Assembly: GCF_020616515.1 (NCBI RefSeq)
Contig: NZ_CP085135.1
Coordinates: 2,232,001-2,296,000 of the forward strand
Direction: 5' to 3'
Source: Mesorhizobium sp. PAMC28654
Lineage (GTDB): Bacteria; Pseudomonadota; Alphaproteobacteria; Rhizobiales; Rhizobiaceae
Length of the DNA stretch: 64,000 nucleotides
The notes beneath the pieces are model-generated. The model was not told the DNA's origin. It worked only from the letters and a program-made list of their open reading frames with translations, and did not search any database. Position 1 is the stretch's first letter, and each line of letters opens with the position of its first letter. This document shows, piece after piece, positions 18,526 to 44,671 of the stretch. The position numbers were made by a program, and so were the translations under genes.

Positions 18526-19683
18526 ATGACGAACGCTATGCACTTGCCAACTGACGGCCTCTTTGTTGGCCGCGCCAGGACAGGCGATGCGCCGCATCCG
18601 CTCGTGGTCACGGTGCGCGACGGCGTGGTCTTCGACATCACGTCGGCCACGGCGCCAACCGTTCGCGATATCTGCGAGATGCCCGACCCTGCCGGACACG
18701 TCAGGTCGGCCAAAGGCAAGCCGATCGGTTTGCTCGATGCAGTCGCCGCCAACAGTTTCCAGTCCACGCGCGACCCGGCAAAGCCATACCTGCTCTCGCC
18801 GGTCGACCTGCAGGCCGTGAAGGCATCGGGCGTCACCTTCGTCGTCAGCCTTCTCGAACGGGTCATCGAGGAACAGGCACGCGGTTCGGCCGAGAAAGCC
18901 GACGCCATCCGCGCCGACATTGCCGGGCTGATCGGCCATGACCTGTCGAAGCTGAAGCCTGGTTCACCAGAGGCGATGGAGATCAAGGCCAAGCTGATCG
19001 CGCGCGGCGCCTGGTCGCAATATCTGGAAGTGGGCATCGGGCCTGACGCCGAGATCTTCACAAAATGCCAGCCGATGGCCTCGGTGGGTTTCGGCGCCGA
19101 TGTCGGCCTGCACCCGGTGTCGACCTGGAACAATCCGGAGCCCGAGATCGCCATGATCGCCGCCAGCAGCGGCAAGATCGTCGGCGCGACCATCGGCAAT
19201 GACGTCAATCTGCGTGACGTCGAGGGGCGCTCGGCACTGCTGCTCGGCAAGGCCAAGGACAACAACGCCTCGGCGTCGCTTGGCCCCTTCATCCGCCTGT
19301 TCGACGATACATTTTCCATCGATGACGTGAAGGACGCCGTCGTCCGCCTGAAGGTCGAGGGCGAGGACGGTTTCTCGCTGGAAGGCGCAAGCTCGATGGC
19401 CGAGATCAGCCGTTCGCCGGAAGAACTGGTTGCCGCCGCCATGGGCCCGCATCACCAATACCCGGACGGGCTGGCGCTCTATCTCGGCACCATGTTCGTG
19501 CCGTCCAAGGATCGCGGCGAAAAGGGCGGGGGGTTCACCCACAAGGTCGGCGACATCGTCACCATCTCGTCGGAGAAGTTCGGCGCGCTGGTCAACCGCG
19601 TGCGGCTGTCACCCGATTGCCCGCACTGGACCTATGGCGCGAGCCATCTCATGCGCGACCTTGCCAAGGCCAATCTTATCTAG
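18526..19683 (+). CDS. Fumarylacetoacetate hydrolase-family sugar-acid enzyme
   Basis: ATG at 18526 has GGGGAGGA at proper spacing; the frame could be read from 18490 but lacks a site there. The 385-residue protein has the FAH-fold C-terminus: YLEVGIGPDAEIFTKCQP, EPEIAMIA (metal-binding Glu pair), GNDVNLRDVEGRSALLL and GASSMAEISRSPEEL. The length and N-terminal domain match the AraD1/GguC-like branch found beside sugar ABC transporters in rhizobia. Members include 2-keto-3-deoxy sugar acid dehydratases and diketo-acid hydrolases. Its place before the SDR and ABC genes suggests a late step of sugar-acid breakdown. Confidence 0.85.
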   Translation: MTNAMHLPTDGLFVGRARTGDAPHPLVVTVRDGVVFDITSATAPTVRDICEMPDPAGHVRSAKGKPIGLLDAVAANSFQSTRDPAKPYLLSPVDLQAVKASGVTFVVSLLERVIEEQARGSAEKADAIRADIAGLIGHDLSKLKPGSPEAMEIKAKLIARGAWSQYLEVGIGPDAEIFTKCQPMASVGFGADVGLHPVSTWNNPEPEIAMIAASSGKIVGATIGNDVNLRDVEGRSALLLGKAKDNNASASLGPFIRLFDDTFSIDDVKDAVVRLKVEGEDGFSLEGASSMAEISRSPEELVAAAMGPHHQYPDGLALYLGTMFVPSKDRGEKGGGFTHKVGDIVTISSEKFGALVNRVRLSPDCPHWTYGASHLMRDLAKANLI

Positions 19684-19756
19684 CCACAAGTCCGAAACAC
19701 GGCACAGCCGGCGCTTGTGGCGGCGGCCGACCGGTTTCCGCATTCAGCGTGTGTTG

Positions 19757-19770
19757 TGGAAACGATATAA
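19757..19770. promoter_or_regulatory. LacI-type operator, site 1
   Basis: TGGAAACGATATAA shares its core with six other sites in the 19-41 kb block. It lies in the 271-bp gap before the SDR-ABC operon, about 120 bp upstream of the promoter-overlapping site 2. Confidence 0.55.
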
Positions 19771-19862
19771 ACCGCCACGCCACCTCTTTGTCGCCATAAG
19801 CTCATTAAATTCAAATAATTATACGAACCCCGATCTGCCAGAGTGATTCAGAGGCGGCCGCC

Positions 19863-19890
19863 TTGACACAAGTATTGGAAACGATATTAT
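19863..19890 (+). promoter_or_regulatory. Promoter with LacI-type operator, site 2
   Basis: TTGACA at 19863-19868 and TATTAT at 19885-19890 (16-bp spacing) make a strong promoter for the SDR-ABC operon. The operator-like TTGGAAACGATATTAT (19875-19890) covers the spacer and the -10 box, so a bound LacI protein would block RNA polymerase. Confidence 0.65.
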
Positions 19891-19954: not shown

Positions 19955-20722
19955 ATGCGGGGGCTCAAAGGCAAGGTCGCGGCGATCACCGGTGCTGGCT
20001 CGGGGATCGGCCGTGCAGCCGCTCTGCGGCTTGGCGAGGAAGGCTGCAAGGTCGCTGTCCTCGACTGGAACGGGGACAGCGCCAAGGCGACCGCCGAGCA
20101 CATCCAAAAGGCTGGTGGCGAGGCCATCGCCATCAAGACCGACGTCAGCAATGAAACGCAGGTCGAAGCCGCGTTTGCCCAGATCGTCAAGACATTCAGC
20201 CGTCTCGATATTCTCGTTTCCAACGCCGGCATCTTTTCGGGCGAACGCGATGGCAAGGTGGACGGGTTGCCCAAGGCCGTCTGGGACGAGATCGTCGGCG
20301 TCAACCTGACCGGCATGTACCTGACCTGCAAGCATGGTGTCGCCGCCATCAAGGCCACCGCCGGCAAGGGCGCGGTGGTGCTCACAGGCTCGCCGACCGG
20401 CATGTCCGGTTGCACGCCCGCCAATGTCGCCTACGGCTCCAGCAAGGGCGGCGTCCACGGACTGTCGCGCGTAATGGCTGTCGACCATGCTCCCGAAGGC
20501 ATCCGCGTCAATGTCGTGGTGCCCGGCTTCACCCTGACGCCCATCGTGCGCGAACTCGTCGCCGACCCCAAGGTCTACGAGTGGCAAGTGCAGAACATAC
20601 CGCTCAAGCGCGGCGCCGAGCCGGAAGAAATCGCCGGAGCCGTGGCGTTCCTGGCGTCGGACGACGCCTCCTACATGACGGGCTCGTTCATGTTTGTCGA
20701 TGGTGGCCTGACCGCCATCTGA
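19955..20722 (+). CDS. SDR-family dehydrogenase
   Basis: ATG at 19955 follows GGGAGGAA; the frame from 19901 has no site. The 255 residues show a classical SDR: TGAGSGIG at about 13-20, NAGIF near 90, catalytic Ser in LTGSPTG and Tyr/Lys in YGSSKGG, and PGFTLTPIV. It heads the first sugar ABC operon directly under the LacI-type promoter. It is likely an NAD(P)-dependent sugar, lactone or 2-keto-3-deoxy acid dehydrogenase; the substrate is not readable from sequence. Confidence 0.9.
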   Translation: MRGLKGKVAAITGAGSGIGRAAALRLGEEGCKVAVLDWNGDSAKATAEHIQKAGGEAIAIKTDVSNETQVEAAFAQIVKTFSRLDILVSNAGIFSGERDGKVDGLPKAVWDEIVGVNLTGMYLTCKHGVAAIKATAGKGAVVLTGSPTGMSGCTPANVAYGSSKGGVHGLSRVMAVDHAPEGIRVNVVVPGFTLTPIVRELVADPKVYEWQVQNIPLKRGAEPEEIAGAVAFLASDDASYMTGSFMFVDGGLTAI

Positions 20723-20799
20723 GCGACCGGAATTCCGGGCGCCTTGGCGCCCGACCGCGCAGTGCAACCATAACAACGACAATCAGGGAGGAACGCTCA

Positions 20800-21870
20800 A
20801 TGGCCGTCAACAAGACCAGACCGAAACTCGTACTCGGCGCCATCGCGCTTGCGCTCGGCATGTCGACCGCTCATGCTGAAGACATCACCATAGGTTTCGT
20901 CGCCCATGCGCAGGGCGATCCTTTCGTGCAGCAGATCCAGGACGGCGCGCAGGCCGCCGCCACGGATCTCGGCGTCAAGCTCGTCGTCGCCCAACAGGCA
21001 GGCGGAGCGCCCGAAGGCCAGTTGAAGCTGGTGCAGAACTTCGCCAATTCCGGCGCGCAAGGCATCGCCACCTCGGTGCCAGGCGAGTCGATGGCCAAGG
21101 GCCTCAATGAGATCATCGGCGGCGGCGTGCCGATCGTTCAGTTCAACCTGCTGTCGACCGCGGTCAATGCTCCCTATGTCGGTGAGAAATCCGTCGAAAG
21201 CGGCCGTATCCTGGGGCGGATGGTGGTCGACAAACTTGGCGGCGCCGGCGCCAAGGGCACGGTCATTCTGGGCAACTGCTTCCCCGGCTTCCCGGTTCTG
21301 GAGAACCGCGCCAAGGGCGTCGAGGAATCGCTGAAGAAGGCGCCTGGCCTGAAGGTGCTCGGTCCGTTCGACGTCAAGGTTTCCGCCGTCGACAACTACA
21401 ACCGCTGGGAACAGCTTTATGGCGCCAATCCTGAAGCCGTGGCGCTGATCGGACTGTGCGCGCCGGACGTCACCAGCCTCGGCAAGCTGAACGCCGCCAA
21501 TGGCGACAAGTTTGTCGCCGGCGGCTATGACCTGACGGAACTCAACCTCAAGGCGGTCAAGGAAGGCCATGCCTATGTGACGATCGGCCAGAGTGCCTTC
21601 GTCCAAGGTTATCTGCCCGTCGCACTGCTGGTCAATGCGATCAAGGGCGGCAAGAAGCTCAGCCCCGGTTTCTACAATGCCGGCTCGCAGATCGTCACGG
21701 CCGACAAGGTCGATATGGGCAACGGCTTGCCGGCTGTCTCATTCGATGAGGCGCAGAAGCTGGCGGCCGACCCGGCAGCGACGGCAGCCTATTACAAGGC
21801 CTGGACCAAGACACTCACCGCCGACATGCTCTCGGCGACGCCAAAGCCGATCTCCGCGGAATCCGAGTGA
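20800..21870 (+). CDS. Sugar ABC transporter periplasmic binding protein
   Basis: The 356-residue product has a signal peptide ending near THAHAED (residue 26) and a ribose-binding-like fold. Landmarks are ITIGFVAHAQGDPFVQQIQ at the mature N-terminus, PIVQFNLLS in the hinge region, and GGYDLTELNLKAVKEG in the second lobe. It delivers a sugar or sugar derivative to the permease at 23482. ATG at 20800 has AGGGAGGA upstream. A strong hairpin follows the gene, which probably keeps its mRNA level above that of the ATPase. Confidence 0.9.
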   Translation: MAVNKTRPKLVLGAIALALGMSTAHAEDITIGFVAHAQGDPFVQQIQDGAQAAATDLGVKLVVAQQAGGAPEGQLKLVQNFANSGAQGIATSVPGESMAKGLNEIIGGGVPIVQFNLLSTAVNAPYVGEKSVESGRILGRMVVDKLGGAGAKGTVILGNCFPGFPVLENRAKGVEESLKKAPGLKVLGPFDVKVSAVDNYNRWEQLYGANPEAVALIGLCAPDVTSLGKLNAANGDKFVAGGYDLTELNLKAVKEGHAYVTIGQSAFVQGYLPVALLVNAIKGGKKLSPGFYNAGSQIVTADKVDMGNGLPAVSFDEAQKLAADPAATAAYYKAWTKTLTADMLSATPKPISAESE

Positions 21871-21893
21871 CTGCTTCCGCAATCCGTTTCAAG

Positions 21894-21923
21894 ATCAGGG
21901 GCGATCGCAGGATCGCCCCTGAT
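21894..21923 (+). terminator. Intra-operon hairpin after binding-protein gene
   Basis: ATCAGGGGCGATC and GATCGCCCCTGAT form a 13-bp perfect stem with a GCAG loop between the binding-protein gene and the ATPase gene. No T run is present, so partial termination or 3'-end protection is more likely than full termination. Confidence 0.65.
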
Positions 21924-21937
21924 TTCGTGGGAAGATC

Positions 21938-23482
21938 ATGTCCGGTCCGCCGATGATTTCCGTGCGCAATCTTGCCAAGCGCTATGGCGGCGTTGTCGCG
22001 CTCCAGGATATGAGCCTGAGCGTCGAGCGGGGCACGATCCACGCCGTCGTGGGCGAAAATGGCGCCGGCAAATCGACGTTGATGAAGGTGCTTGCCGGCG
22101 TCGTACGGCCCGATAGCGGCGCCATCGAGCTCGATGGCCACGCAGTGACCATCGACAGCCCCAACGCCGCGCGGCAGCACGGCATTGGCATGGTCTATCA
22201 GGAACTCAGCCTGTTTCCCGAGCGGTCCGTGCTGGCCAATCTGTTCGTCAACCGCGAGCCGGTGCACAACGGCCTGATCTCCAAACGAGAGATGGAAGCC
22301 CGCAGCCGCGACCTGCTTCGGCAGCTTGGCCTGCACGTCGACGTGCACGCGCCGGTCAGCCGCCTCAGCATTGGCGAGCGGCAGCTCGTCGAACTCACTC
22401 GCGTGCTGCTCGAGCACCCCCGTCTGCTGATCCTTGACGAGCCGAATTCCGCACTCAACCAGCGCGAGACAGAGCGGCTGTTCACGGTGCTGAAGGGGCT
22501 GCGCGCCAACGGCATCAACATGCTCTACGTGTCGCATCGGCTGGAGGAGGTTTTCGCCATTTCCGACCGTGTTACCATCACCCGCAACGGGCGCGATGTG
22601 CTGACGAAGGATCGTTCAGCGCTGACGATACCCGAAGTCATCGAGGGCATGATCGGCCAGCAGCGCGAGGCATTGTTCCCACCTCCCCTGCCGTCGACGG
22701 TCGGTGCGACACTGCCGCAGATGACGGTGAAGGGCCTTGCGGGCGGCAGGCTTGCGAATGTCAGCTTCACCGCGCGTTCCGGCGAGATCGTCGGGTTGGC
22801 CGGGCTTGAAGGGTCCGGCGTCGCGGATCTTCTCGACATGCTGTTCGGCTTGCGCAAGGCGCGCGGCGGCGAGGTGCGCTTTCCCGACGGCAGCGGCCTG
22901 CCCAGGAGCGCGACCGAAGCAGCACGGCGCAATGTCTGCCTGGTTCCATCCGACCGCCGCCGCAACGGGCTGATGTTGGACAAATCCATCCTGTTCAACA
23001 TTTCCAACGTGGTCGTCGGCGCGCGCGACTGGGGCACGCCCTGGTATTCGCCCAAAACCGCGCTCAGCCGCGCCAACCGTCAGATCGACGCGCTGCGTAT
23101 CAAGGGCCTGCCGCACGCACTGGCGAACTCGCTGTCGGGCGGCAACCAGCAGAAGGTCGTCATCGGCAAATGGCTGGAGATCGGGCCGCAGGTCTTCCTG
23201 CTCGATGATCCGACGCGTGGCGTCGATATCGGCGCCAAGCGTGAGATCTACACGCTGATCCGCGAGATGTCGGCCAATGGCGGCATCGTGCTGTTCAGTT
23301 CGACCGAACTGCCCGAATTGATCGGGCTCTGCGACCGCATCCTGGTCATTTATCAAGGCCGGCTCGCCGGCGAGGTTTCTGGAGCCGAGATGAACAGCCA
23401 GACGGTCCTGCATCTGACCAATACCGGCGAAATGCCGGGTGCGGGCCGCAAGAAGCAAGCACGCCAGGGGGACATGGCCTGA
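21938..23482 (+). CDS. Sugar ABC transporter ATPase, RbsA type
   Basis: The 514-residue protein is a fusion of two nucleotide-binding domains. The first has Walker A GENGAGKS (39-46), a divergent signature LSIGERQLVEL and Walker B LLILDEPNSAL. The second has a non-canonical P-loop region (GLEGSGVADLL), LSGGNQQKVVIGKWL and Walker B FLLDDPTRGVD with Asp in place of the catalytic Glu. Such asymmetry is normal for RbsA/MglA/XylG. It ends in TGATG, sharing one base with the permease start. Confidence 0.93.
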   Translation: MSGPPMISVRNLAKRYGGVVALQDMSLSVERGTIHAVVGENGAGKSTLMKVLAGVVRPDSGAIELDGHAVTIDSPNAARQHGIGMVYQELSLFPERSVLANLFVNREPVHNGLISKREMEARSRDLLRQLGLHVDVHAPVSRLSIGERQLVELTRVLLEHPRLLILDEPNSALNQRETERLFTVLKGLRANGINMLYVSHRLEEVFAISDRVTITRNGRDVLTKDRSALTIPEVIEGMIGQQREALFPPPLPSTVGATLPQMTVKGLAGGRLANVSFTARSGEIVGLAGLEGSGVADLLDMLFGLRKARGGEVRFPDGSGLPRSATEAARRNVCLVPSDRRRNGLMLDKSILFNISNVVVGARDWGTPWYSPKTALSRANRQIDALRIKGLPHALANSLSGGNQQKVVIGKWLEIGPQVFLLDDPTRGVDIGAKREIYTLIREMSANGGIVLFSSTELPELIGLCDRILVIYQGRLAGEVSGAEMNSQTVLHLTNTGEMPGAGRKKQARQGDMA

Positions 23483-24516
23483 TGAGCAAGACCGATCTCA
23501 TTCCACCGCTCGCCGGATCGGCGGCCCACCCTGCCCGGCGCGGCTTTCGCATTCCCGAGGAGATCGGCGTCATCATCGCGCTGGTCGGGATGATGGCGAT
23601 CATCGGCTTTGCCCGGCCGCGCTTCCTCAATCCGATCAACCTGTTTTCGCTGCTGGGCAACACAACCTTCCTCGGCATGCTGGCTATCGGCATGGTGTTC
23701 CTGCTCGCCATCCGCGAGATTGATCTTTCGGTCGGCTGGATGTTCAACTTCTCCGCGGTCTTCGCGGCACTGCTGATGGTCGCGGGCATCGACCCCTGGC
23801 TTGCCGCCTTTGCCGGGGTGCTGTTCGGCGCCGGCCTCGGCCTGATCAACGGGCTGATCGCGGTGACGTTGCGCCTGCCCGCCATCATCGTGACGCTGGG
23901 CACCTACTCCATGTTCCAGGGCCTGTCGCTGGTGGTGAACAAGGGACGCGCGATCGTGCCGGCGGACCAGAGCAGCAGCTTCTTCTCGGTGATCTCCGAC
24001 AAGCTCTTCGGCGTCGTGCCGGTGGCCGCACTGGTGTTCATCGCACTGGCGCTCGCCATGCACATCGTGCTTCATCGCACCCGCTTCGGCTATCGCGTGC
24101 AGGCGGTGGGCAGCAACCCCGAGGCCGCCGCCCATGCCGGCATTCCGACTGCGTTGGTGCGGCTGCAGACACTGGTGCTGATGGGCGCCATCTGCGGGCT
24201 TTCGGGCGTGATGTATGTCGGTTTCCGCGGCGCCATCGATCCCAATGAAGGCAGTGATTTCGTGCTCGTGGTGATTGCCGCGGTGATCATCGGCGGCACT
24301 CCGCTGTCCGGCGGTCATGGCACGATCATCGGCGCGGTGATCGGCATGATGATCATCCAAGTGATCTCGAGCGGGCTGATCTTCTTCGGCATCGACGCGA
24401 CATGGAGCACATTCGTCACCGGCGCCGTGACCGTGCTGGCCGTGTCGCTGGACCGGCTGATCAAGTTCCAGCGCACAAGGCGCATCGAGCGCAGCAAGGA
24501 AAATTTCCACGCCTGA
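23482..24516 (+). CDS. Sugar ABC transporter permease, RbsC type
   Basis: The 344-residue membrane protein has about ten hydrophobic segments. It carries REIDLSVGWMFNFSAVFAAL, the family's 'GgIDLSVGs' motif with Arg-Glu here, and GGTPLSGGHGTIIGAVIGMM near the end, both diagnostic of BPD_transp_2 permeases. It pairs with the two-domain ATPase and binding protein just upstream. A single permease gene implies a homodimeric pore. The gene converges on the LacI regulator, 11 bp away. Confidence 0.93.
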   Translation: MSKTDLIPPLAGSAAHPARRGFRIPEEIGVIIALVGMMAIIGFARPRFLNPINLFSLLGNTTFLGMLAIGMVFLLAIREIDLSVGWMFNFSAVFAALLMVAGIDPWLAAFAGVLFGAGLGLINGLIAVTLRLPAIIVTLGTYSMFQGLSLVVNKGRAIVPADQSSSFFSVISDKLFGVVPVAALVFIALALAMHIVLHRTRFGYRVQAVGSNPEAAAHAGIPTALVRLQTLVLMGAICGLSGVMYVGFRGAIDPNEGSDFVLVVIAAVIIGGTPLSGGHGTIIGAVIGMMIIQVISSGLIFFGIDATWSTFVTGAVTVLAVSLDRLIKFQRTRRIERSKENFHA

Positions 24517-24527: not shown

Positions 24528-25547
24528 CTATCGCCTCGGAACAGGCAGGCAGGATCCGCCCATGATCAGTTGCGTCGGGAATGAGATGCGTTGCGCCGGA
24601 CGATCGCTGTGGCCGCCGAGCCGCTCCAGCAGAAGCTGCGCGGCGGTGCGGCCGATTTCTTCCACGGGCCGGTCTATGAGCGTGATCGGTCCTGGATAAA
24701 GCAATGCGACGTCCGACCGGTCGCAACCGATCAGCGAAATGTCCTGAGGCACGGATACGCCCTGCTGCTGGATGGCGCGCAACACGCCGACCAGGATGCG
24801 GTTGCCGGCGGCGATGATGGCGGTCGGCCGTTCCGGCATCTGGAGCAAGGCTGTCGCCTCGCGGAAACCGAAATCCACCGAAAGGCTTTGCGAACGGATC
24901 AGATCTTCCGGCACCGGCAAGCCACTGCGCTGGAACGCTTCGACGAAGCCGCGCACGCGCTCACGGCCGGGGCGGATGTCGCTGCCGGCGGTGATGATGG
25001 CGATGCGGCAATGTCCGAGTTCGATCAGGTAGCTCGTCGCCTGCCGCAGTCCGGTGGCATGCTCGGTCAGCACGGCGTCGATATCGAGCGGGATGTCACG
25101 GTCGAGCAGTACCGAGGGAACGCGCAATTCCTTCAGGCGCTTGATGGTACGGGCATCCTGTTCGTTGTTGATGGTCATGATCATGCCGTCGGCGCGGCCG
25201 TGCTGCAGCATGTCGATGGCCGCCGCCTCCTCGGTCGCGCGGCCATTGGTGCTCATCAGATAGAGTGAATAGCCGCGCTGGCGCATTTCCGCGTCCACCG
25301 CCTTGAAGCAGCTAGCATGCCAGGGATTGGCGATATCGTCGATGACGAAGCCGACAGTCATGGTATTGCGGCGGCGCATGTTCTGCGCACGCGAATCGGG
25401 CTGGAAACCGAGCTGCTGGATCGCCGCGCGCACCTTGCCAAGCGTACCCGGCCTCACGGTCTCAGGCGCGTTCAAACTCCGTGAAACGGTTCCGACAGAG
25501 ACGCCGGAAACACGCGCCACATCCCGTATTGTCGCCGGCTTGTCCAT
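24528..25547 (-). CDS. LacI-family repressor of the sugar-acid regulon
   Basis: ATG at 25547 has GAGGAAG upstream and gives 339 residues starting MDKPATIRDVARVSGVSVGT, the classical LacI HTH, with a hinge helix at MRRRNTMTVGFV. The effector domain is ribose-binding-protein-like (DRDIPLDIDAVLTEHATG, IGCDRSDVALLYPGPITLID). It sits between the first ABC operon and the dehydratase gene, and is divergent from the latter. Seven similar operator-like sites around it are the probable targets, so it may act as the local master repressor; this is inferred from site recurrence and gene position. Confidence 0.9.
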   Translation of the reverse strand: MDKPATIRDVARVSGVSVGTVSRSLNAPETVRPGTLGKVRAAIQQLGFQPDSRAQNMRRRNTMTVGFVIDDIANPWHASCFKAVDAEMRQRGYSLYLMSTNGRATEEAAAIDMLQHGRADGMIMTINNEQDARTIKRLKELRVPSVLLDRDIPLDIDAVLTEHATGLRQATSYLIELGHCRIAIITAGSDIRPGRERVRGFVEAFQRSGLPVPEDLIRSQSLSVDFGFREATALLQMPERPTAIIAAGNRILVGVLRAIQQQGVSVPQDISLIGCDRSDVALLYPGPITLIDRPVEEIGRTAAQLLLERLGGHSDRPAQRISFPTQLIMGGSCLPVPRR

Positions 25548-25678: not shown

Positions 25679-25721
25679 CTTGACCTCGCGAGAGCGGCTG
25701 GACTATTCTGGAAACGTTTCT
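25679..25721 (+). promoter_or_regulatory. Promoter with LacI-type operator, site 3
   Basis: CTTGAC at 25679-25684 and CTATTC at 25703-25708 match the rhizobial housekeeping promoter. GGAAACGTTTCT (25710-25721), a near-perfect LacI-family palindrome, follows over the transcription start, ahead of the dehydratase gene at 25749. Confidence 0.7.
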
Positions 25722-29582: not shown

Positions 29583-29594
29583 ATCCTATAGACC

Positions 29595-33926: not shown

Positions 33927-33970
33927 TTGCAATGCTCATTCGGGCTGGCTATTAATTGAAACGATATTTT
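33927..33970 (+). promoter_or_regulatory. Promoter with LacI-type operator, site 6
   Basis: TTGCAA (33927-33932) and TATTAA (33950-33955) are 17 bp apart, followed at once by ATTGAAACGATATTTT (33955-33970) over the transcription start. This promoter leads into the plus-strand operon beginning at 34008. Confidence 0.65.
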
Positions 33971-36441: not shown

Positions 36442-36770
36442 TCAAGCGCGTCAGTTTCCTCCGCCGCAAGGAAGGGCTCAGCAAGGAAGAGTTTTTTACC
36501 CACTGGACCGGCCCGCATGCCGATATTGTCAGCCAGTTGCCCGGCGTGCGCGGTCTGCGCTTCGGGCGAGTGCAGAGCTGGTCGCCGGAAGACGCTACCT
36601 GGGACGGTGTCGGCGAAGTCTGGTTCGACAGCATCGAGGACGCGCACAAGGCATTTGCCACCGAGCCGTTCCACTCGATGCTGGTGGAAGACCGGAAGAA
36701 ATTCATGCGCGAGGCGCAATCGTGCTTCGTCACCGAACTGACGGTGATCGCGCCACCGTCGGAAGCCTAA
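36438..36770 (+). CDS. EthD-domain protein
   Basis: The 110-residue product begins MIKRVSFLRRKEGLSKEEFF and continues with HWTGPHADIV, the EthD ferredoxin-like signature. EthD proteins are small, often dimeric, and accompany oxidoreductases or decarboxylases; a defined reaction is rare. Co-translation with the VOC gene upstream and an SDR gene 12 bp downstream ties it to the sugar-acid operon, perhaps as a small isomerase or lactone-processing enzyme (speculative). Confidence 0.87.
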   Translation: MIKRVSFLRRKEGLSKEEFFTHWTGPHADIVSQLPGVRGLRFGRVQSWSPEDATWDGVGEVWFDSIEDAHKAFATEPFHSMLVEDRKKFMREAQSCFVTELTVIAPPSEA

Positions 36771-36782: not shown

Positions 36783-37550
36783 ATGGCGTTCAACATCGGC
36801 TCCGGCCTCGAAGGAAAAAGCGTTCTCGTCACCGGCGGCACGGGCGGCATCGGCCGCGAGGTGTGCTTGGCCTTCGCGGCGGCCGGTTCTCGCGTCGCGG
36901 TGGTCGACATCGACCAGGGCCGTGTCGACACGCTGGTGGCGGAAATGGAAGGCGGACCGCATCTGGCGATCGCCCATGACCTACGGCCGGTCGGCGGCCA
37001 TGCCGAGTTGATCGCGAAGGTGGTTGGAGTGTTCGGCAAACTTGACGTGCTTGTGCAGACGGCGGCGGTGCTGATCCGCAGGGCGAGCGTCTTTGATGTC
37101 AGTGAAGCCGACTGGGATATCCAGCACGACGTCAACCTCAAGGCCTCGTTCTTCCTGTGCCAGGCTGTTGCCCGCACCATGAAGGAGCAGGGCACGGGCG
37201 GCCGGATAATCAACTTCACCTCGCAGGGCTGGATGAGCGGCGGCTTCGGAGGATCCGTTGCCTATGCGGCGACCAAGGGCGGCATCGTCTCGATGACGCG
37301 AGGGCTGGCGCGCTCGCTCGCCAAGGACAAGATCACCGTCAACGCGGTGTCGCCTGGCGCGGCGGACACGGCGATGATGCGTTCGGGCATGGACGATGCG
37401 GCACTGGCCGGCACCATCGCGCAGATACCGCTTGGCTACATGGCGGCGCCTTCCGAACTCGCGGGCTCCGTGCTGTTCCTCGCGTCCAACCACGCCAGTT
37501 ACATCACCGGCGCCACCATCAATGTCAGCGGCGGCTGGCTGATGTACTAG
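36783..37550 (+). CDS. SDR-family dehydrogenase
   Basis: The 255 residues contain TGGTGGIG near 19-26, catalytic Ser in INFTSQGWMSG, YAATKGG with Tyr and Lys, and SPGAADTAMM. The usual NNAG is VQTAAV, a deviation also seen in some sugar dehydrogenases. GGAGG precedes the ATG. It is followed 23 bp on by another SDR gene, and the two differ enough to act on different steps. It is probably an oxidoreductase for a sugar-acid intermediate. Confidence 0.88.
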   Translation: MAFNIGSGLEGKSVLVTGGTGGIGREVCLAFAAAGSRVAVVDIDQGRVDTLVAEMEGGPHLAIAHDLRPVGGHAELIAKVVGVFGKLDVLVQTAAVLIRRASVFDVSEADWDIQHDVNLKASFFLCQAVARTMKEQGTGGRIINFTSQGWMSGGFGGSVAYAATKGGIVSMTRGLARSLAKDKITVNAVSPGAADTAMMRSGMDDAALAGTIAQIPLGYMAAPSELAGSVLFLASNHASYITGATINVSGGWLMY

Positions 37551-37573: not shown

Positions 37574-38344
37574 ATGACGCAATCGCTGTCGGGAAAGGTA
37601 GCCGCCATAACCGGTGCGGCACGCGGCATCGGCGATGCGATTGCCGCTCGTTTCCTAGAGGAAGGCGCCAGGGTCTTCTCGCTCGATCTCAGCGAACCGG
37701 ACGAAAGGCGCGAAGGCGTAACCTATCTGACCGCCGACGTTGCGAACACCGAAAGCGTCGCCGAGGCCTTCCGCAGCATCGACCGTGAGGCCGGATGCAT
37801 TGACGTGCTGGTCAACAATGCCGGCGTGCAGCGGGTTGCCCTCGCCGAAAACATGCTGATCGAGGACTGGCATCTGGTTCTCAACACCCACTTGACCGGC
37901 ATGCATCTATGCTGTGCACAGGCGATACGCCGCATGCGGGAGCGAGGCACCGGCGGTGCGATCGTCAGCATCGCGTCAGCCGCGGGCATTGTCGGCATCC
38001 CCGGACGTGGACCCTACAGCGCCGCGAAGGCAGGCATCGAAAGCCTGACGCGCGTCTACGCCACGGAGGTCGCGTCCGCCAACATCCGCGTCAATGCGGT
38101 GGCTCCCGGCTCCACGCGTACCAAGCTGATCGAGCAAGGGCTGAAGGACGGTTCCATCCGTGGCGAATGGCAGGTCGAACGCATTCCGATGGGGCGGCTC
38201 GCGGAGCCCGTGGAGATCGCCGATCCGGTCGTCTACCTGGCCAGCGACAGGGCAAGCTACATCACGGGCCAAACCTTGGTCGTCGATGGCGGCTGGACCG
38301 TGCAAGGGATGGTGCACATCGCAGACTGGCTGCGGGTCTCTTGA
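37574..38344 (+). CDS. SDR-family dehydrogenase
   Basis: ATG at 37574 has GGGAGGAA 7 bp upstream. The 256-residue SDR has TGAARGIG near 14-21, NNAGVQ, catalytic Ser in IVSIASAAG and Tyr/Lys in YSAAKAG. PGSTRTKLI and ITGQTLVVDGGWT match gluconate 5-dehydrogenase or 3-oxoacyl reductase-like enzymes. Its stop overlaps the TTG start of the acyl-CoA ligase (TTGA), linking the sugar-acid steps to CoA activation. Confidence 0.9.
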   Translation: MTQSLSGKVAAITGAARGIGDAIAARFLEEGARVFSLDLSEPDERREGVTYLTADVANTESVAEAFRSIDREAGCIDVLVNNAGVQRVALAENMLIEDWHLVLNTHLTGMHLCCAQAIRRMRERGTGGAIVSIASAAGIVGIPGRGPYSAAKAGIESLTRVYATEVASANIRVNAVAPGSTRTKLIEQGLKDGSIRGEWQVERIPMGRLAEPVEIADPVVYLASDRASYITGQTLVVDGGWTVQGMVHIADWLRVS

Positions 38345-39867
38345 TCGCGAAACCCTTCAATCTCGCTGATCATTGCGTCGGTCGCCCCGCAAGCGCGACG
38401 CCGGACAAGACGGCGTTGATCGTGGTCGGTGACGCCGATGCACCCGAACAAGCCGAGCGCTGGACCTATGCCGCCCTCGACCTTGCCGTGCGCGGCGTGG
38501 CCGCGGGGCTGCTTGCCGAGGGCCTCACTGCCGGCGACAGGATCATGCTGCGCCTGCCCAACACCAGCGACTATGCGCTGCTGTTCTTCGGCGCCATCTC
38601 GGCCGGCCTCGTGCCGATTCCCGTGTCCTCGCAACTGACGGAAGGTGAAGCCGCTTTTTTGCTCGACGATTCCGCCGCCTCAGCCATCGTGCGAACCGGC
38701 CCATTGGCAATCGCTTCGATCCCGCCGGGCTGCAAGATCATCGACGAAAAAGCGATCGCCCGCCTCAAGGCGTCGGTACCGCTTCCCGCCCATGCGGACA
38801 CGGAGGCCGAAGCGCCGGCCTTCATGATCTACACATCCGGCACGACCAGCCGGCCCAAGGGCGTCGTTCACGCGCATCGCACCGCGCTTGGCCGGGCACC
38901 AATGCACCGCGACTGGCAAGGGCTGACCTCCGATGACATCATGCTGCATGCGGGCGCCTTCAACTGGAGCTATACGCTGGGCGTCGGGTTGCTCGACCCC
39001 TGGGCCTGCGGCGCGACCGCCGTGCTCTATAACGGGCCGAGGGATATCGAGGTGTGGCCAAAGCTGATCGACGCCGCCGGTGCCACGCTTTTCGCCGCCG
39101 TGCCCTCGCTCTATCGGCAGATGCTGAAATACTGCTCGTTGACACCGGGGAGCATGCCAACGCTGCGGCATGGCCTTGCCGCCGGCGAGGCCCTGAGCCC
39201 TGCTATCCTGGAAAGCTGGCGCAGAGCTACGGGGCGCGAGATCTACGAGGCGTTTGGCATGAGCGAATGCTCGACCTTCGTCTCCAACCACGCGGGCATG
39301 CCGATCCGCCCGGGCAGCCCAGGCAAGTCGCAAGGCGGACGGCGCATCGCCATCCTGCCGCTTTCGGGTTCCAATGAGCCGTTGCCCACCGGAGACATCG
39401 GGCTGCTTGCCATCCATCGCGGCGATGCCGGCCTGATGCGCGGCTACTGGCGGCGCGCGGAGGAAGAAAACCAGGTGTTTCGCGGCGACTGGTTTGCCGG
39501 CGGTGATCTCGCCGCTTTCGATAAAGACGGCTATATCTGGTATCATGGCCGTGCCGACGACATGATGAATGCTGGCGGCTTCCGGGTCTCGCCGCTGGAG
39601 GTCGAGGCGGCATTGGCGCCCTGCCCCGGCATTGCCGAAATCGCGGTCGCCGAACACCGTGTGCGCGACGATGTATCGGTGATCGCCGCCTATGTGGTGC
39701 GCAAGGACGGCGCCAGCGTCAGCGCCGAAGACATCGTCGCCATGGCTGGCAAGCGCCTTGCCGCCTACAAATGCCCGAGGCAGGTGTTCTTCGTGCCCAG
39801 CCTGCCGCGCAGCGCCAATGGCAAACTGCTGCGCCGCGATTTGAACATGTCGGCGATATCGTCATGA
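38341..39867 (+). CDS. AMP-dependent acyl-CoA synthetase (carboxylic acid CoA ligase)
   Basis: A TTG at 38341, overlapping the SDR stop, gives about 508 residues starting MIAKPFNLADHCV; no upstream ATG fits. The ANL-superfamily motifs are clear: IYTSGTTSRPKGVVHAHR (A3), YEAFGMSECS (A5), GDWFAGGDLAAFDKDGY (A7), NAGGFRVSPLEVE (A8) and SANGKLLRRDL with the catalytic Lys (A10). The layout resembles benzoate/acetyl-CoA-type ligases; the acid is unknown. It is the last gene of this operon and points to a carboxylic acid intermediate being activated to its CoA thioester. Confidence 0.9.
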   Translation: MIAKPFNLADHCVGRPASATPDKTALIVVGDADAPEQAERWTYAALDLAVRGVAAGLLAEGLTAGDRIMLRLPNTSDYALLFFGAISAGLVPIPVSSQLTEGEAAFLLDDSAASAIVRTGPLAIASIPPGCKIIDEKAIARLKASVPLPAHADTEAEAPAFMIYTSGTTSRPKGVVHAHRTALGRAPMHRDWQGLTSDDIMLHAGAFNWSYTLGVGLLDPWACGATAVLYNGPRDIEVWPKLIDAAGATLFAAVPSLYRQMLKYCSLTPGSMPTLRHGLAAGEALSPAILESWRRATGREIYEAFGMSECSTFVSNHAGMPIRPGSPGKSQGGRRIAILPLSGSNEPLPTGDIGLLAIHRGDAGLMRGYWRRAEEENQVFRGDWFAGGDLAAFDKDGYIWYHGRADDMMNAGGFRVSPLEVEAALAPCPGIAEIAVAEHRVRDDVSVIAAYVVRKDGASVSAEDIVAMAGKRLAAYKCPRQVFFVPSLPRSANGKLLRRDLNMSAISS

Positions 39868-39911: not shown

Positions 39912-40148
39912 TCAGACCTCAAGCACGAGCGTCGGCGCGCCGGTTTTCACGTCATCGCCGACAGCAATCAGGATCTCGACCACGGTGCCGCCAAAAGGAG
40001 CCGGAATCTCGACCTGGCTCTTGTCGGTTTCGACAACAAACAGCGTCTGCCCCTCGACGACCTTGGCGCCAATCTTGGCCTGGATATCGTTGATCACGAC
40101 TTCGTCGACGGCGTCGCCGACCTTGGGCATTTTGAGGGTGGAACGCAT
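39912..40148 (-). CDS. Free-standing lipoyl/biotinyl domain protein
   Basis: ATG at 40148 gives 78 residues, essentially one lipoyl-type domain with VVETDKSQVEIPAPFGGTV, Lys 43 being the attachment site. ETDK flanking points to lipoyl rather than biotin, where MKM is expected. It has no catalytic or linker part, so it is not a full E2. It is divergent from genes for E1 beta and E1 alpha, with a LacI-type site between them. I infer a mobile lipoyl carrier for that E1 pair, with the acyltransferase and E3 drawn from elsewhere. Confidence 0.85.
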   Translation of the reverse strand: MRSTLKMPKVGDAVDEVVINDIQAKIGAKVVEGQTLFVVETDKSQVEIPAPFGGTVVEILIAVGDDVKTGAPTLVLEV

Positions 40149-40308: not shown

Positions 40309-40327
40309 ATAAAAACGTTTCCAAATT
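40309..40327. promoter_or_regulatory. LacI-type operator, site 7
   Basis: On the minus strand TTGGAAACGTTTTTAT matches the cores at 25710 and 26718. It lies in the 244-bp gap between the lipoyl gene and E1 beta. On the minus strand TTGATG and TTATAG nearby form a weak promoter for the lipoyl gene. Confidence 0.55.
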
Positions 40328-40392: not shown

Positions 40393-41400
40393 TTGGCTAA
40401 AATCTGGATACGGCAAGCGGTCCTGAGGGCGCTTGACGATGCGATGACGGATGATCCCAGCGTCATCGTCATGGGCGAGGATGTCGCCGTGGCCGGCGGC
40501 CCGTTCAAGGTGACCGACGGCCTGCTTGCCTCGCACGGCCCGGAACGGGTGATCGACACGCCGATTTCCGAAATGGCCTTCATGGGCGCCGCGGTCGGCG
40601 CGGCGGTCTGCGGTCTGAAGCCGGTGGTCGAGATGATGTTCATCGAGTTCATCGGAGTCGCGCTCGATCAATTGACGACGCAGGCGGCGACGATGCGCTA
40701 TCTGTCTCGCGGCCGGCTGACGACGCCGCTCGTCGTGCGCGCCTCGGCCGGCGCCGGCCAGGGTTTCGGTTGCCAACACTCGCAGATGCTCGATCATTGG
40801 TTTCGGGGCACGCCGGGCCTCAAGGTCGCGGTGACCAGCAACGCCCGCACGACCTACGGCCTGCTCCGTTCCGCGATCGAGGATCCCGATCCCGTGGTGA
40901 TACTCGAGCCGCGCGTGCTCTACGCCGAGCGCGAGGAATATGAATTCGACCGCAACTACCGCATTCCGCTCGGCCAGGCCGAGATCGCGCGGCAGGGAAG
41001 CGATGTGACGCTCGTCACCTGCGGCGCCATGCGGCGCGTCGCGCTGGCGGCGGCGGAGGCCAGCAGCGCCAACATCGAGGTCATCGACCTCCTGACATTG
41101 TGGCCCTGGGACCGCAAGACCGTGATGGAATCAGTTGCGCGCACCGGCCGTCTGGTCACCTTGGAAGAGGCGCCGGCCGGCAGCGGCTGGGGCGGCGACG
41201 TCGTCTCGTCGATCGCCGTCGAGGCTTTCGGCAAGCTGAAGGCCGCGCCGCACCGGATCACGCTTCCCGACGCTCCCGTGCCCTACAGCGGCGCCCTTGA
41301 AGCCCGTTTCCTGCCCAACCCGGCCTATGTGGCCGAGCAGGTGGCCGCCCTGGTCTCGACCAACAAACCGCCCCTGCCCTGGTGGAGGAATGCAGCATGA
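40393..41400 (+). CDS. 2-oxoacid dehydrogenase E1 beta subunit
   Basis: A TTG at 40393, behind GGGAGG, starts 335 residues MAKIWIRQAVLRALDDAMTD. The transketolase-like pyrimidine-binding domain has VIVMGEDVAVAGGPFKVT, DTPISEMAFMGAAVGAA (with the activating Glu) and TTQAATMRYLSRG; the C-terminal transketolase domain has EVIDLLTLWPWD and TLEEAPAGSGWGGDVVS. It matches acetoin/pyruvate/branched-chain E1 beta (AcoB type). It pairs with the E1 alpha gene that overlaps it by 4 bp. Placing beta before alpha is the reverse of the common order. Confidence 0.93.
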   Translation: MAKIWIRQAVLRALDDAMTDDPSVIVMGEDVAVAGGPFKVTDGLLASHGPERVIDTPISEMAFMGAAVGAAVCGLKPVVEMMFIEFIGVALDQLTTQAATMRYLSRGRLTTPLVVRASAGAGQGFGCQHSQMLDHWFRGTPGLKVAVTSNARTTYGLLRSAIEDPDPVVILEPRVLYAEREEYEFDRNYRIPLGQAEIARQGSDVTLVTCGAMRRVALAAAEASSANIEVIDLLTLWPWDRKTVMESVARTGRLVTLEEAPAGSGWGGDVVSSIAVEAFGKLKAAPHRITLPDAPVPYSGALEARFLPNPAYVAEQVAALVSTNKPPLPWWRNAA

Positions 41401-42431
41401 CGATCTCCAATTCCAATTCCCCGATTGCCCGTCGCGAAGCCTTGCAGGACAGACTCGAGCAACTCACGCGGATGATCGAAATCCGCTTTGTCGAGGATCG
41501 CATCCAGAAGCTGTTCGCCGAAGGCCATATCCGCGGCAGCACGCATCTGGCCAGCGGCCAGGAGGCGGTTTCGGTCGGCATCGCCCGCTCGATCGATCCG
41601 GACGATATCGTCACCTGCACCTATCGCGGCCACGGCCACGCGCTGGCACTCGGCGTGACGCCGGAAGGCGTGATCGGCGAGATTTGCGGCCGCGTCATCG
41701 GCTGTGCCGGCGGCCTTGGCGGCTCGATGCATCTGGTCGAGCCGGAGGTTGGCCTGCTGCCGACCGCAGCCATTATTGGCGCCGGGCTGCCCATCGCCTG
41801 CGGGGCGGCAATGGCCGCACGGGCGCGTGGCAAGGATCGCGTCGCCGTCTCGATCTTCGGGGACGGCTCGGCCAACATCGGCGCCTTCCATGAATCGCTG
41901 AATTTCGCGGCCATCCGCAAACTGCCGGTGGTGTTCGTCTGCGAGAACAATCTCTATGGCGAATACACGCGCATCGAACTGTCGACGCCGGTCGAGGATA
42001 TCGCGGTGCGTGCCGCCAGCTACGACATGCCCGGCGTCATCGTCGACGGGCAGGATGTCGACAAGGTCGCGGAGGCGATGACGACCGCTGTTGCGCGGGC
42101 GCGCCGAGGCGAAGGTCCGACCTTGATCGAAATGAAGACCTATCGCTATTCAGGCCATTCGCGATCCGACCCGGCGACGTACCGGCCGGCGGGCGAACTG
42201 GACGCCTGGTTGAAGCGCGACCCGATCGACATTCTTGCCGATAGGCTGGTCAGCGAAAGCATTCTGGCGCCAGGCGGTCTCGACCATCTGAAAGCCGAGA
42301 CGCGCGATGCGGTGGAACGGGCGACGGCGGAGGTGCTGGACTCACCGGCACCAGATCTGGGAGAAATCCTGTCGCATGTCAGCGCTTCTTCGGCTGGAGG
42401 CGACCAGAGGTTCAGCTTCTGGTCACGCTAG
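41397..42431 (+). CDS. 2-oxoacid dehydrogenase E1 alpha subunit
   Basis: ATG at 41397 sits in ATGA overlapping E1 beta, with GGAGG upstream; a GTG frame opening at 41382 is inside the beta gene. The 344-residue protein has the thiamine diphosphate motif GDGSANIGAFHESLNFAA (about 155-172) ending in CENN at 182-185, TYRGHGHALALG, and YRYSGHSRSDPATYR with the phospho-loop. It decarboxylates a 2-keto acid and reductively acylates the lipoyl domain. Substrate may be pyruvate, acetoin or a sugar-derived keto acid. Confidence 0.93.
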   Translation: MTISNSNSPIARREALQDRLEQLTRMIEIRFVEDRIQKLFAEGHIRGSTHLASGQEAVSVGIARSIDPDDIVTCTYRGHGHALALGVTPEGVIGEICGRVIGCAGGLGGSMHLVEPEVGLLPTAAIIGAGLPIACGAAMAARARGKDRVAVSIFGDGSANIGAFHESLNFAAIRKLPVVFVCENNLYGEYTRIELSTPVEDIAVRAASYDMPGVIVDGQDVDKVAEAMTTAVARARRGEGPTLIEMKTYRYSGHSRSDPATYRPAGELDAWLKRDPIDILADRLVSESILAPGGLDHLKAETRDAVERATAEVLDSPAPDLGEILSHVSASSAGGDQRFSFWSR

Positions 42432-42450
42432 CATCCAGGCTTGCCAAGGC

Positions 42451-43461
42451 ATGACAAGCGAGCGTTCGGCGATCGGCATAGACGGACCGTTCTATGATGA
42501 TCTGAGAATTGGCGATCGTTTCGATACGGCGCCGGCCATGCGGCTGACGGACGGCCTTGCCGCCGTTCATCACGCCATTGTCGGCGGCCGGCTCAGGCTC
42601 GCCTTCGATGCCGATTTGTCGGCGTCCGTCACCGGTAGCCAACAGCCATTCGCCGCACCGGCGCTGGTCTGGGACATCGCGATCGGGCAATCGACGCTTG
42701 TGACACAGCGGGCGATCGCCAACCTCTTCTATCGTGGCCTGTTCTTCCGCAGGGCGCCGTCTATCGGAGATACTCTCAAGACCGCCACCACGGTCATTGG
42801 GCTGCGGCCGGCCAGCGCCAAGCCCGGCCGGCCATCGCGCGGCCTCGTCACCATGCGAATCGCCACCAGCGATCAGGACGATCGGCCGGTGCTCGATTTC
42901 TGTCGTTGCGCCATGCTGCCCGCCAGGCAAGCCGAAGATAGTGGCGCGCAAGGCGAGACCGATTTGCCGAGACCCGAACTGACAGCCATGCAGGCGGCAG
43001 CGGCAGTCGAGAGCTGGAATCTCGAAGCCTATCGCAAGGCGGTCCATGGCCTGCATTTCAACGATCTGCGCGCAGGGACAGTGCATCGCCTTGCGGGCGG
43101 CGACGTGGTCAGCAGCGCGCCGGAACTGGCGCGGCTGACGATGAACCTGGCTGCTATCCATCATGACAGCACACAGTCGGGGCAACGCCTCGTCTATGGC
43201 GGCCACACGATCGGGCTTGCAGCAGCACAGCTGACCCGTGTCTTCCCGTCCCTGGTCACCATTCTCGGCTGGCACGATTGCGACCATCTCGGTCCGGTGC
43301 ATGAAGGCGATACGCTGCATTCCGAGATCACCGTCGAACGCTGCGAGGCGCTGCCGTCCGGTGGCGGGCTTGTCCATCTGCGCTCCTTCGCGAGAGCGAC
43401 AAATCTCTCCGGCAAGGTTTCCGACGTCCTCGACTGGCGGCTGATCGGATTGTTCGCATGA
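42451..43461 (+). CDS. Double-hotdog MaoC-type dehydratase (mesaconyl-CoA hydratase-like)
   Basis: ATG at 42451, 19 bp after E1 alpha, gives 336 residues with two hotdog halves. FYDDLRIGDRFDTAPAM and NLFYRGLFFRRAPSIGDTL in the first half and LGPVHEGDTLHSEITVERCE in the second follow the pattern of (3-methyl)malyl-CoA dehydratase/mesaconyl-CoA hydratase. The expected activity is reversible hydration of a branched or C4-C5 enoyl-CoA. It overlaps the CoA-transferase gene by 4 bp. Exact substrate is inferred from the family only. Confidence 0.75.
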   Translation: MTSERSAIGIDGPFYDDLRIGDRFDTAPAMRLTDGLAAVHHAIVGGRLRLAFDADLSASVTGSQQPFAAPALVWDIAIGQSTLVTQRAIANLFYRGLFFRRAPSIGDTLKTATTVIGLRPASAKPGRPSRGLVTMRIATSDQDDRPVLDFCRCAMLPARQAEDSGAQGETDLPRPELTAMQAAAAVESWNLEAYRKAVHGLHFNDLRAGTVHRLAGGDVVSSAPELARLTMNLAAIHHDSTQSGQRLVYGGHTIGLAAAQLTRVFPSLVTILGWHDCDHLGPVHEGDTLHSEITVERCEALPSGGGLVHLRSFARATNLSGKVSDVLDWRLIGLFA

Positions 43462-44671
43462 ATGACGGCATCCTGTCTGGCCTCAGCGTCGTCGAGGGCT
43501 CAGCCTTCGTCGCGGCGCCGCTCGGCGGCATGACGCTGGCGCAGCTCGGCGCCGACGTCATCCGCTTCGACCAGATTGGCGGCGGGCTCGACCATCGCCG
43601 CTGGCCGGTGACGGAAAGCGGCCAAAGCCTGTTCTGGGCGGGCATGAACAAAGGCAAGCGTTCGATACAGGTCGACCTGCGCTCCCCGGAAGGACAGGAC
43701 ATCGTTGCGGCATTGATCACCCGGCCGGGGCCTGATCACGGCATCTTCCTGACCAACCTGCCGGCCAGGGGCGCTCTCACCTACGAAGCCCTCAAAGCAC
43801 GCCGTGACGATCTCATCATGGTCGCGCTGACCGGCAACGCCGATGGTTCAAGCGAGGTCGATTACACGGTCAATTCGCGACCGGCTTTCCCGAGATCACA
43901 GGACCGCGCGGCGCCGACGAGCCCACCAACAGCGTGCTACCGGCCTGGGATATCGCCATGGGCGAGATGGCCGCCGTCGGCCTGCTCGCGGCCGACCGGC
44001 ATCGCAGCCGCACCGGCAAGGGATCGCTGGTGAAACTGGCGCTATCCGACGTGGCGCTGGCCATGGTCGGCAATCTTGGGCGGCTGGCGCAAGCCGAACG
44101 TGGGGGAATGGCCGAAAAGGACGGTAACTCCCTTTACGGCGCATTCGGACGCGACTTCATCACTGCGGATGGCCGGCGCGTCATGGTGATGGCCCTGACC
44201 GACCGGCAGTGGGCCGCATTGCAGCGGGCAACGGGTCTTGACGCGGCCGGTCTCACCTCCGCGACCGGCACCGACCTTTCAACGGAAAGCGGACGTTTCG
44301 TGGCACGGGATGCCATCAGCGCTGCACTGGCGCCATGGTTTTCAGCCCGCAGCTTTGCCGAGCTCCGGCATATCCTTTCCGACGCAGGCGCTTCCTGGGG
44401 TCCTTACCAGACATTCCAGCAATTGCTGGCGGAAGACCCACGCTGTTCAACGGACAATCCGCTGTTCTCCAGGGTCGATCACCCTGGCATCGGCCCCCTG
44501 CTGACGCCGGCCTCGCCGCTCTACTTCTCATCGGCGAACCGCGTCGGTGCAAGGCGGGCGCCTTTGCCCGGCGAGCACACCGATGAGATTCTGACCAGCC
44601 TGGGATTGAGCGACGACGAGATCGGACGACTGCATGATCGCGGCATTGTCGCCGGCCCGACACGGACATGA
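43458..44671 (+). pseudogene. Family III CoA-transferase (2-methylfumaryl-CoA isomerase-like), frameshifted
   Basis: The first frame reads GLSVVEGSAFVAAPLGGMTL and IGGGLDHRRWPVTESG up to VDYTVN near 43874, then goes out of frame. The second frame resumes at once as ATGFPEITGPRGADEPTNSV, then LPAWDIAMGEMAAVGLLAA, and runs to 44671. A single missing base in AATTCGCGACC (expected AATTGCGCGACC) restores a CaiB/BaiF protein of about 404 residues. The N-terminus and IGGGLDxRRWP resemble Mct, 2-methylfumaryl-CoA isomerase. The break is either a real mutation or a sequencing error. It is the last gene of the E1 operon. Confidence 0.8.

Follow-up and report, generated by a model that had tools for sequence, protein, structure and literature searches.

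A conserved gene set in Mesorhizobium that seems to lead from a sugar to coenzyme A thioesters

The stretch of DNA considered here (the window) comprises 64,000 nucleotides, positions 2232001-2296000 of the 6.7-Mb single-contig genome of Mesorhizobium sp. PAMC28654, and carries a conserved block of about 25 genes, apparently under joint control, which would lead from a sugar to coenzyme A (CoA) thioesters. To judge from its genes, the locus is a conserved composite, the parts of which are ordinary and the combination of which is unusual: sugar dehydrogenases, lactonases and acid-sugar dehydratases stand beside the α and β subunits of a 2-oxoacid dehydrogenase E1 component, an acyl-CoA ligase and a CoA-transferase. 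A pyruvate-dehydrogenase-like enzyme is probably placed where an aldolase usually acts. The explanation that we favor, at a probability of roughly 40%, is a single LacI-controlled sugar locus in which E1 would oxidatively decarboxylate a 2-keto-3-deoxy acid, followed by steps at the CoA level. Of the relatives seen that bear a species name, Mesorhizobium comanense is the closest, with 85–99% protein identity across the block.

Most of the proteins were identified by scans against the NCBIfam and Pfam families, and the importers (mostly) and the LacI regulator by eye. Two ribose-type ATP-binding cassette (ABC) importers would take up the sugar. Importer 1 (20797..24516, plus strand; binding protein, ATPase, permease) is recognized by PF13407 for its binding protein and otherwise by eye, and importer 2 (26972..30704, minus strand; ATPase, permease, binding protein) by eye and a family scan; both occur in 11 of the 12 loci compared below. 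A search of solved binding proteins for the importer substrate gave no match at E values of 1e-20 and 1e-15. Oxidation of the sugar to a lactone would fall to two short-chain dehydrogenases, SDR1 (19955..20722, plus strand; 11 of 12 loci), a candidate sugar 1-dehydrogenase that scores below the cut-offs of the NCBIfam SDR models, and SDR2 (32787..33620, minus strand; family scan), the true start of which is probably about 30 codons further in. The lactone would be opened to the acid by an SMP-30/gluconolactonase-type lactonase (31895..32773, minus strand; PF08450, 83 bits) and an L-fuconolactonase-like amidohydrolase-2 lactonase, AMH (35080..35952, plus strand; PF04909; NF052480 at 69 bits, cut-off 400; PDB entry 4dlf at 48 bits). 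Enolase-type acid-sugar dehydratases produce 2-keto-3-deoxy acids, and two members of the enolase superfamily, both of the MR/MLE class, ENO1 (25749..26867, plus strand) and ENO2 (30744..31877, minus strand), could dehydrate the acid in this way. ENO1 matches PDB entries 3msy, 3no1 and 4h83 at 464 bits, the molecule names of which are generic, and the copies of ENO2 in relatives are 91–99% identical. The LacI-family regulator (24528..25547, minus strand; by eye) is whole in 11 of 12 loci and lies in two frames in the remaining locus, G302.

In place of an aldolase, E1 β (40393..41400, plus strand; family scans) and E1 α (41397..42431, plus strand; PF00676, 269 bits), the latter with an intact thiamine-diphosphate motif, would decarboxylate the 2-keto-3-deoxy acid onto a lipoyl carrier, giving a 3-hydroxyacyl thioester that is one carbon shorter. 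The carrier would be the free-standing lipoyl protein LIP (39912..40145, minus strand; PF00364, 61 bits) or, in genomes G015 and G298, a full E2. LIP lies between the ligase gene and E1 β, and all 10 of the copies examined retain its lipoyl site ETDK; the carrier that a sequence-only reading of this DNA had joined to the E1 pair is present, but antisense to it in the window. The acyl-CoA ligase, LIG (38374..39867, plus strand, start approximate; AMP (adenosine monophosphate)-forming; PF00501/PF13193, with NCBIfam acyl-CoA ligase models below cut-off), the dehydrogenases SDR3 (36783..37550, plus strand) and FabG-like SDR4 (37577..38344, plus strand), both from family scans, and a set of Mct-type transferase and MaoC-type hydratase, MCT (43458..44671, plus strand) and MEH (42454..43461, plus strand), joined in G015 by a CitE-type lyase, may then carry the product onward as CoA esters, in the direction of acetyl-CoA and a small 2-oxo acid. 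Compared with solved structures, LIG gave no match at 1e-60, the query being the 92% identical protein P0121. Between AMH and SDR3 lie a VOC/glyoxalase-fold protein (35962..36441, plus strand; PF13669) and an EthD-domain protein (36438..36770, plus strand; PF07110, 54 bits; 10 of 12 loci). A tartrate/D-malate-type decarboxylating dehydrogenase, TTDH (34008..35090, plus strand; 9 of 12 loci), clears the tartrate dehydrogenase cut-off of TIGR02089 (527 bits against 470); the other proteins scanned with NCBIfam fall below the cut-offs shown or have no match, and therefore their substrates cannot be named. The gene classes named in the sequence-only reading are present at or near the positions it gave, the EthD gene (36438-36770) having been unlisted there.

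The loci compared are those of the window, G346, M. comanense, G404, Mesorhizobium sp. 65-26 (G298), G403, G299, G300, G301, G302 (strain LSHC420B00), G015 and G261. Genes were placed in the relatives by tblastn with proteins of the window or of G298, and other open reading frames were called by composition, their identity being judged by eye wherever no family scan is cited. Gene content, linkage, operator-like sites and purifying selection are direct observations on these sequences. Seventeen genes (SDR1, the three of importer 1, LacI, ENO1, the three of importer 2, ENO2, SMP-30, SDR2, AMH, VOC, SDR3, SDR4 and LIG) occur together in 11 of the 12 loci. Besides the window, ten more genomes of the order, from at least two families, have the block, which is colinear in nine of them and rearranged in one; ten of the 11 loci with a sugar block have the genes in the window's order, and in G015 the SDR1-to-ENO1 segment is inverted. 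LIG is present in every locus with a sugar block and an E1 pair in all 12, the window-type pair being detected in 10, LIP in 10, EthD in 10 and TTDH in 9 (not seen in G015, G261 or G302). The acyl part, the absence or unlinking of which in relatives was to refute the sequence-only reading, stays with the sugar genes in 11 of the 12 loci read; in G302, the exception, the sugar half has been lost.

Six of the loci were first located through an acyl gene, and the eight that were found through ENO2 provide a fairer test of linkage. G297–G302 were first found through MEH; G297 and G298 were recovered through ENO2 (as G312 and G366, with the same match coordinates, and taken as identical genomes), and G299, G300, G301 and G302 were found through MEH only. 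In the eight ENO2-found genomes (six of the genus, the window's included, plus G015 and G261), LIG and E1 α/β are linked without exception; seven further ENO2 matches, 45–58% identical, stand outside this count. ENO1 and ENO2 each occur in 6 of 146 genus genomes (E ≤ 1e-120), and ENO2 is more than 90% identical in 3 of 297 order genomes. MEH is found in 6 of 146 genus genomes (E ≤ 1e-40) and 1 of 297 order genomes (E ≤ 1e-30). Among 385 class genomes, one carries E1 β at E ≤ 1e-95. Five genomes have MEH, ENO1 and ENO2, G404 has both dehydratases without MEH, and G355 (coordinates identical to G302, strain LSHC420B00) has MEH without either dehydratase. Across the 146 genus genomes, MEH and ENO2 occur together in five and singly in one and one (Fisher 7e-8, for species that are not independent). 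For 18 coding pieces compared with G346 and M. comanense, pairwise ratios of nonsynonymous to synonymous substitution (dN/dS) are 0.01–0.15; for the 17 that are present in G404, where MEH is absent, they are 0.06–0.32. The set excluded the importers, SDR2, FAH (described below) and EthD; by this measure, the genes covered are under purifying selection. Trees of E1 and of the sugar genes both group G299 with G300 and recover the window's clade; elsewhere the sugar tree is unresolved.

Operator-like sites were located by pattern match before SDR1 (19757..19768 and 19876..19887, plus strand), between LacI and ENO1 (25709..25720, plus strand), between SDR2 and TTDH (33663..33674, plus strand), before TTDH (33956..33967, plus strand) and before E1 β (40312..40323, minus strand). 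The LacI-type motif TKGAAACGWTWY has seven matches in 18401-47300, six at promoters and one inside the ENO1 reading frame, compared with an expectation for that interval of 0.017 on average and 1 at most in 300 Markov sequences. The whole 6.7-Mb genome contains 13 matches, and the reversed control pattern 2. Outside the block there are six matches, five of them inside reading frames by the open reading frame calls (one, in L125, in a doubtful frame) and the sixth in the gap before a gene that by eye resembles a flavin adenine dinucleotide monooxygenase. The pattern was read off the window's own sites, and the enrichment test is therefore partly circular; independent support for the sites comes from their placement, which recurs in relatives. 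A site precedes ENO1 in all 11 loci with a sugar block; all 11 also have one between SDR2 and TTDH or AMH, and 10 have one before SDR1, G300 being the exception. A site 80–84 bases 5′ of E1 β is present in 8 of the 10 loci with the window-type pair and is missing in G302 and in G404, the E1 of which appears to lie in the TTDH operon. The shared operator-like sites of the sequence-only reading are thus confirmed as seven in the block, with the same promoters marked in relatives. As one part of the favored explanation, and with rather less than even confidence, they would tie the block into a single predicted LacI-controlled regulon.

That E1 works for the sugar part is best supported by the variation among loci: an E1 and LIG are retained throughout, whereas the lineage of E1 and the enzymes of the later steps differ. 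In Mesorhizobium sp. 65-26 (G298), a further E1 α, a further E1 β and a complete E2 lie directly 3′ of ENO1, and this second pair is 50% (E1 α) and 42% (E1 β) identical to the first. Such a second pair stands directly behind ENO1 in three genomes, G298, G015 and G261. Of 297 order genomes, 32 match the second-type E1 α at E ≤ 1e-90; among these, only G015 (81%) and G261 (75%) exceed 54% identity, the remaining matches listed being 47–54% identical. Both G015 and G261 carry the sugar block together with the series AMH-VOC-EthD-SDR3-SDR4-LIG, and TTDH, LIP, MEH and the AceE-like gene that neighbors the block in the window were found in neither. G015 has in addition the full E2, a relative of MCT behind LIG (48/37%), a MaoC protein that includes a dehydratase domain of FAS1 type, and a lyase resembling CitE/RipC.

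The loci with the window-type E1 pair fall into a reduced form (window, G346, M. comanense and G404) and an extended form (G298, G403, G299, G300, G301 and G302), with LIP present in both alike. In the extended form, the interval between LIG and E1 β holds a second CoA-transferase, a RipB-like MaoC protein, an ABC ATPase, a third enolase-type enzyme, a short-chain dehydrogenase and a VOC protein, and a muconolactone-isomerase-like gene is present in four of the six loci; 3′ of MCT, where the contig reaches that far, follow a second LacI and another sugar importer. G404, which forms the longest branch of the E1 tree, has TTDH, AMH, VOC, SDR3, SDR4, LIG, LIP, E1 β, E1 α and MCT all in the same direction as one putative operon, so that LIP there is in line with LIG and E1.

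The available part of PMC6336799 describes three fates of a 2-keto-3-deoxy acid: aldol cleavage, dehydration, and dehydrogenation followed by hydrolysis. Similar to the loci of Route I (Dahms), Route II (Weimberg) and Route III, the block has, by family, a sugar dehydrogenase, a lactonase, an acid-sugar dehydratase, an ABC importer and a regulator in one place. Unlike those loci, it has E1 and CoA enzymes and no recognized enzyme of aldol cleavage or Route III hydrolase; scans of most proteins against family models, with the importers and LacI read by eye, recognized neither an aldolase, a kinase nor a Route III hydrolase in the block of the window. Of enzymes that belong to the established fates, FAH (18526..19683, plus strand; PF01557), a loosely linked, 2-keto-3-deoxypentonate dehydratase-like protein of Route II type, is next to the sugar block in 3 of the 11 genomes that have it, a PF03328 lyase is found in G015, and SDR4 could be a 4-dehydrogenase. 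Because no aldolase or Route III hydrolase is recognized, FAH is loosely linked and an E1 pair stands behind ENO1 in three genomes, we infer oxidative decarboxylation by E1; the substrate is likewise inferred, and the order of the steps after E1 is a guess. More tentatively still, the locus may represent a fourth fate of 2-keto-3-deoxy sugar acids, in which E1, with a free lipoyl carrier or an E2 of its own, would form a 2-deoxyaldonyl thioester that proceeds through β-oxidation or a citramalyl-type end, the sugar thereby being broken down in the form of an acyl-CoA. If true, non-phosphorylative sugar pathways would gain an aldolase-free branch into acyl-CoA metabolism, two enolase-superfamily dehydratases and a member of the Rv0216 family would gain a context, and the work of E1 with a free lipoyl carrier would become a concrete biochemical question. 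Even with the linkage alone, the block offers a well-bounded gene set and a regulator for an inducer search.

The mesaconyl-CoA end belongs to the 3-hydroxypropionate bicycle. Similar to the mesaconyl-CoA module and the itaconate-methylsuccinate clusters as covered in the available part of PMC12290011, the block has an Mct-like transferase and a MaoC hydratase, and in G015 a CitE/RipC-like lyase. Unlike these modules, it is tied to sugar genes, and its scores fall below the equivalog cut-offs; no citramalyl-CoA lyase was recognized in the window, and the G015 lyase is without a homologue in the other 11 loci. A sugar acid in the form of a CoA thioester is also reminiscent of the 2-deoxyribonate cluster of Klebsiella michiganensis, for which the accessible portion of PMC6365646 proposes activation by a CoA-synthetase, oxidation by a hydroxyacyl-CoA dehydrogenase and cleavage, a CoA-transferase being present; LIG and SDR3/SDR4 are candidates for such steps here. 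E1 acting on 2-keto-3-deoxygluconate would give a deoxyribonyl thioester. That portion of PMC6365646 names no dehydratase or E1, and the thiolase and glycerate kinase that it does name have no counterpart recognized, by eye and in the scans, in the window's block. In the open-access literature searched, no description was seen in which E1 and an acyl-CoA ligase accompany acid-sugar dehydratases. The sequence-only reading, which knew of no described pathway with this combination, is to be qualified by the CoA-bound sugar acid proposed for Klebsiella. The branched acyl-CoA product and the aldarate substrate suggested in that reading are hypothetical. In common with the 2-oxoacid dehydrogenase complexes for pyruvate, acetoin and branched-chain substrates, the loci have E1 α and β, a thiamine motif and a lipoyl domain, together with an E2 in G015 and G298; unlike those complexes, the window has a free lipoyl carrier, and no E2 or E3 is recognized in its block.

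Several observations weigh against oxidative decarboxylation within a single pathway. With LIP alone and no E2 with an acyltransferase domain or E3 recognized in the window's block, release of the acyl group from the carrier of the E1 at 40393-42431 is unexplained, and the stretches of G261 that were read contain no E2, LIP or MCT. The substrate specificity of E1 is not readable from sequence, and among four plasmid neighborhoods of E1 β homologues one is an acetoin set and three have an enoyl-CoA hydratase and an acyl-CoA dehydrogenase. TTDH, MEH, MCT and LIP are not constant across the loci; with MCT interrupted in the window and MEH absent from G404, these steps may be dispensable. The CitE-like lyase of G015, the Pfam family of which (PF03328) is named HpcH/HpaI aldolase/citrate lyase, could be an aldolase. 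All 6 genomes tested have an FAH gene at some position (in G301 at 56%), and the 2-keto-3-deoxy acid may therefore go through Route II. Finally, G302 has lost the sugar half and kept the acyl half: a whole FAH, the two-frame LacI and the last fifth of LIG adjoin there (L015 1-1600 and L090).

This presence of FAH in all six genomes and the survival of the acyl half alone in G302 would also be expected if the substrate were a conjugate, the sugar half being broken down by a conventional Weimberg-type pathway (Route II) or by an unlinked one, with the acyl half (LIG, SDR3/4, VOC, EthD, E1, MEH and MCT) degrading the released acid or aglycone, as two parallel pathways in one regulon. EthD, VOC and muconolactone-isomerase-like genes are usual in ring or lactone catabolism, and all three kinds are present, the last in four of six extended loci. 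However, no glycosidase or esterase was noticed by eye among the open reading frames of the block, FAH lies outside the conserved part, and the second E1 pair stands directly behind ENO1, and we regard a conjugate as rather unlikely. That same position of the second pair, in three genomes, speaks against an E1 that resembles acetoin dehydrogenase and cleaves an acyloin, a hydroxy-ketone formed by SDR3/SDR4, rather than the dehydratase product. The acetoin set in one of the four plasmid neighborhoods and the location of the window's E1 outside the ENO1 operon fit such an enzyme, which nonetheless seems improbable.

Lastly, the acyl genes may be hitch-hikers, that is, adjacent catabolic islands that share the LacI-type motif by descent or chance. 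The patchy distribution (6 of 146 genus genomes), the variability of MEH and MCT and the state of G302 are consistent with this, and the AceE-like gene and its Lrp regulator next door resemble such a neighbor. Set against it are the linkage in 8 of 8 ENO2-found genomes from two families, the different E1 pair at the same locus and the conserved operator-like sites, which leave it only a slim chance. A single sugar-to-CoA pathway with E1 in the place of the aldolase remains the preferred explanation.

MEH is a double-hotdog MaoC-type hydratase that in the PDB comparison is closest to Rv0216 (PDB 2bi0, 336 bits, titled ‘hypothetical protein’), compared with 87 bits for the β-methylmalyl-CoA dehydratase 8hgn and 73 bits for the MaoC-domain dehydratase 4e3e. 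It had been called mesaconyl-CoA hydratase-like, of which the MaoC-type hydratase fold is retained and the closest kinship is moved to Rv0216. MCT is a class III CoA-transferase like the mesaconyl-CoA C1-C4 transferase, present as the sequence-only reading had it, although split in the window by a 1-bp deletion. Its two pieces score 220 and 278 bits with TIGR04253, below the equivalog cut-off of 725, the interrupted copy of the window rather than the intact copies of relatives having been scored. One base is missing near 43875, and the gene is in frame in M. comanense and G346; the missing base is either a mutation or an assembly error. In Rhodococcus koreensis (L031 7802-12224), homologues of MEH and MCT lie, by eye, beside a CitE-like lyase and an acyl-CoA dehydrogenase, a neighborhood that suggests that the Rv0216 family serves in a hydration of the mesaconyl-CoA type.

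FAH had been counted as a member of the pathway; the gene is present, but it adjoins the sugar block in only 3 of 11 genomes, besides the remnant locus of G302 (some stretches end 2–6 kb past SDR1), and lies elsewhere in the genome in G297, G299, G300 and G301. Its position is variable, and it was rejected as a core enzyme. Homologues of ENO1 and ENO2 on plasmids are 42–50% identical; four of the nine matches were read, of which three have sugar importers, and the four point to no common substrate. Homologues of LIG in two Methylobacterium plasmids occur without other block genes, except for a 29% SDR match in one.

At the 3′ side of the block, the AceE/transketolase-like gene ACEE (44706..47096, minus strand; family scans) adjoins 7 of the 10 loci with the window-type E1. 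ACEE was set aside as a likely, though not certain, neighbor and probably not a member, because the two Mesorhizobium plasmids that were read carry ACEE and Lrp but none of the other genes, and no operator match is nearby. ACEE and the divergent Lrp regulator span 44706-47698, and the plasmid copies are 91% and 74% identical and lie near conjugation genes. Beside ACEE, RpiR, SDR and mannitol-dehydrogenase-like genes at 47790-51072, which are kept in G298 and G346, perhaps form a separate polyol block.

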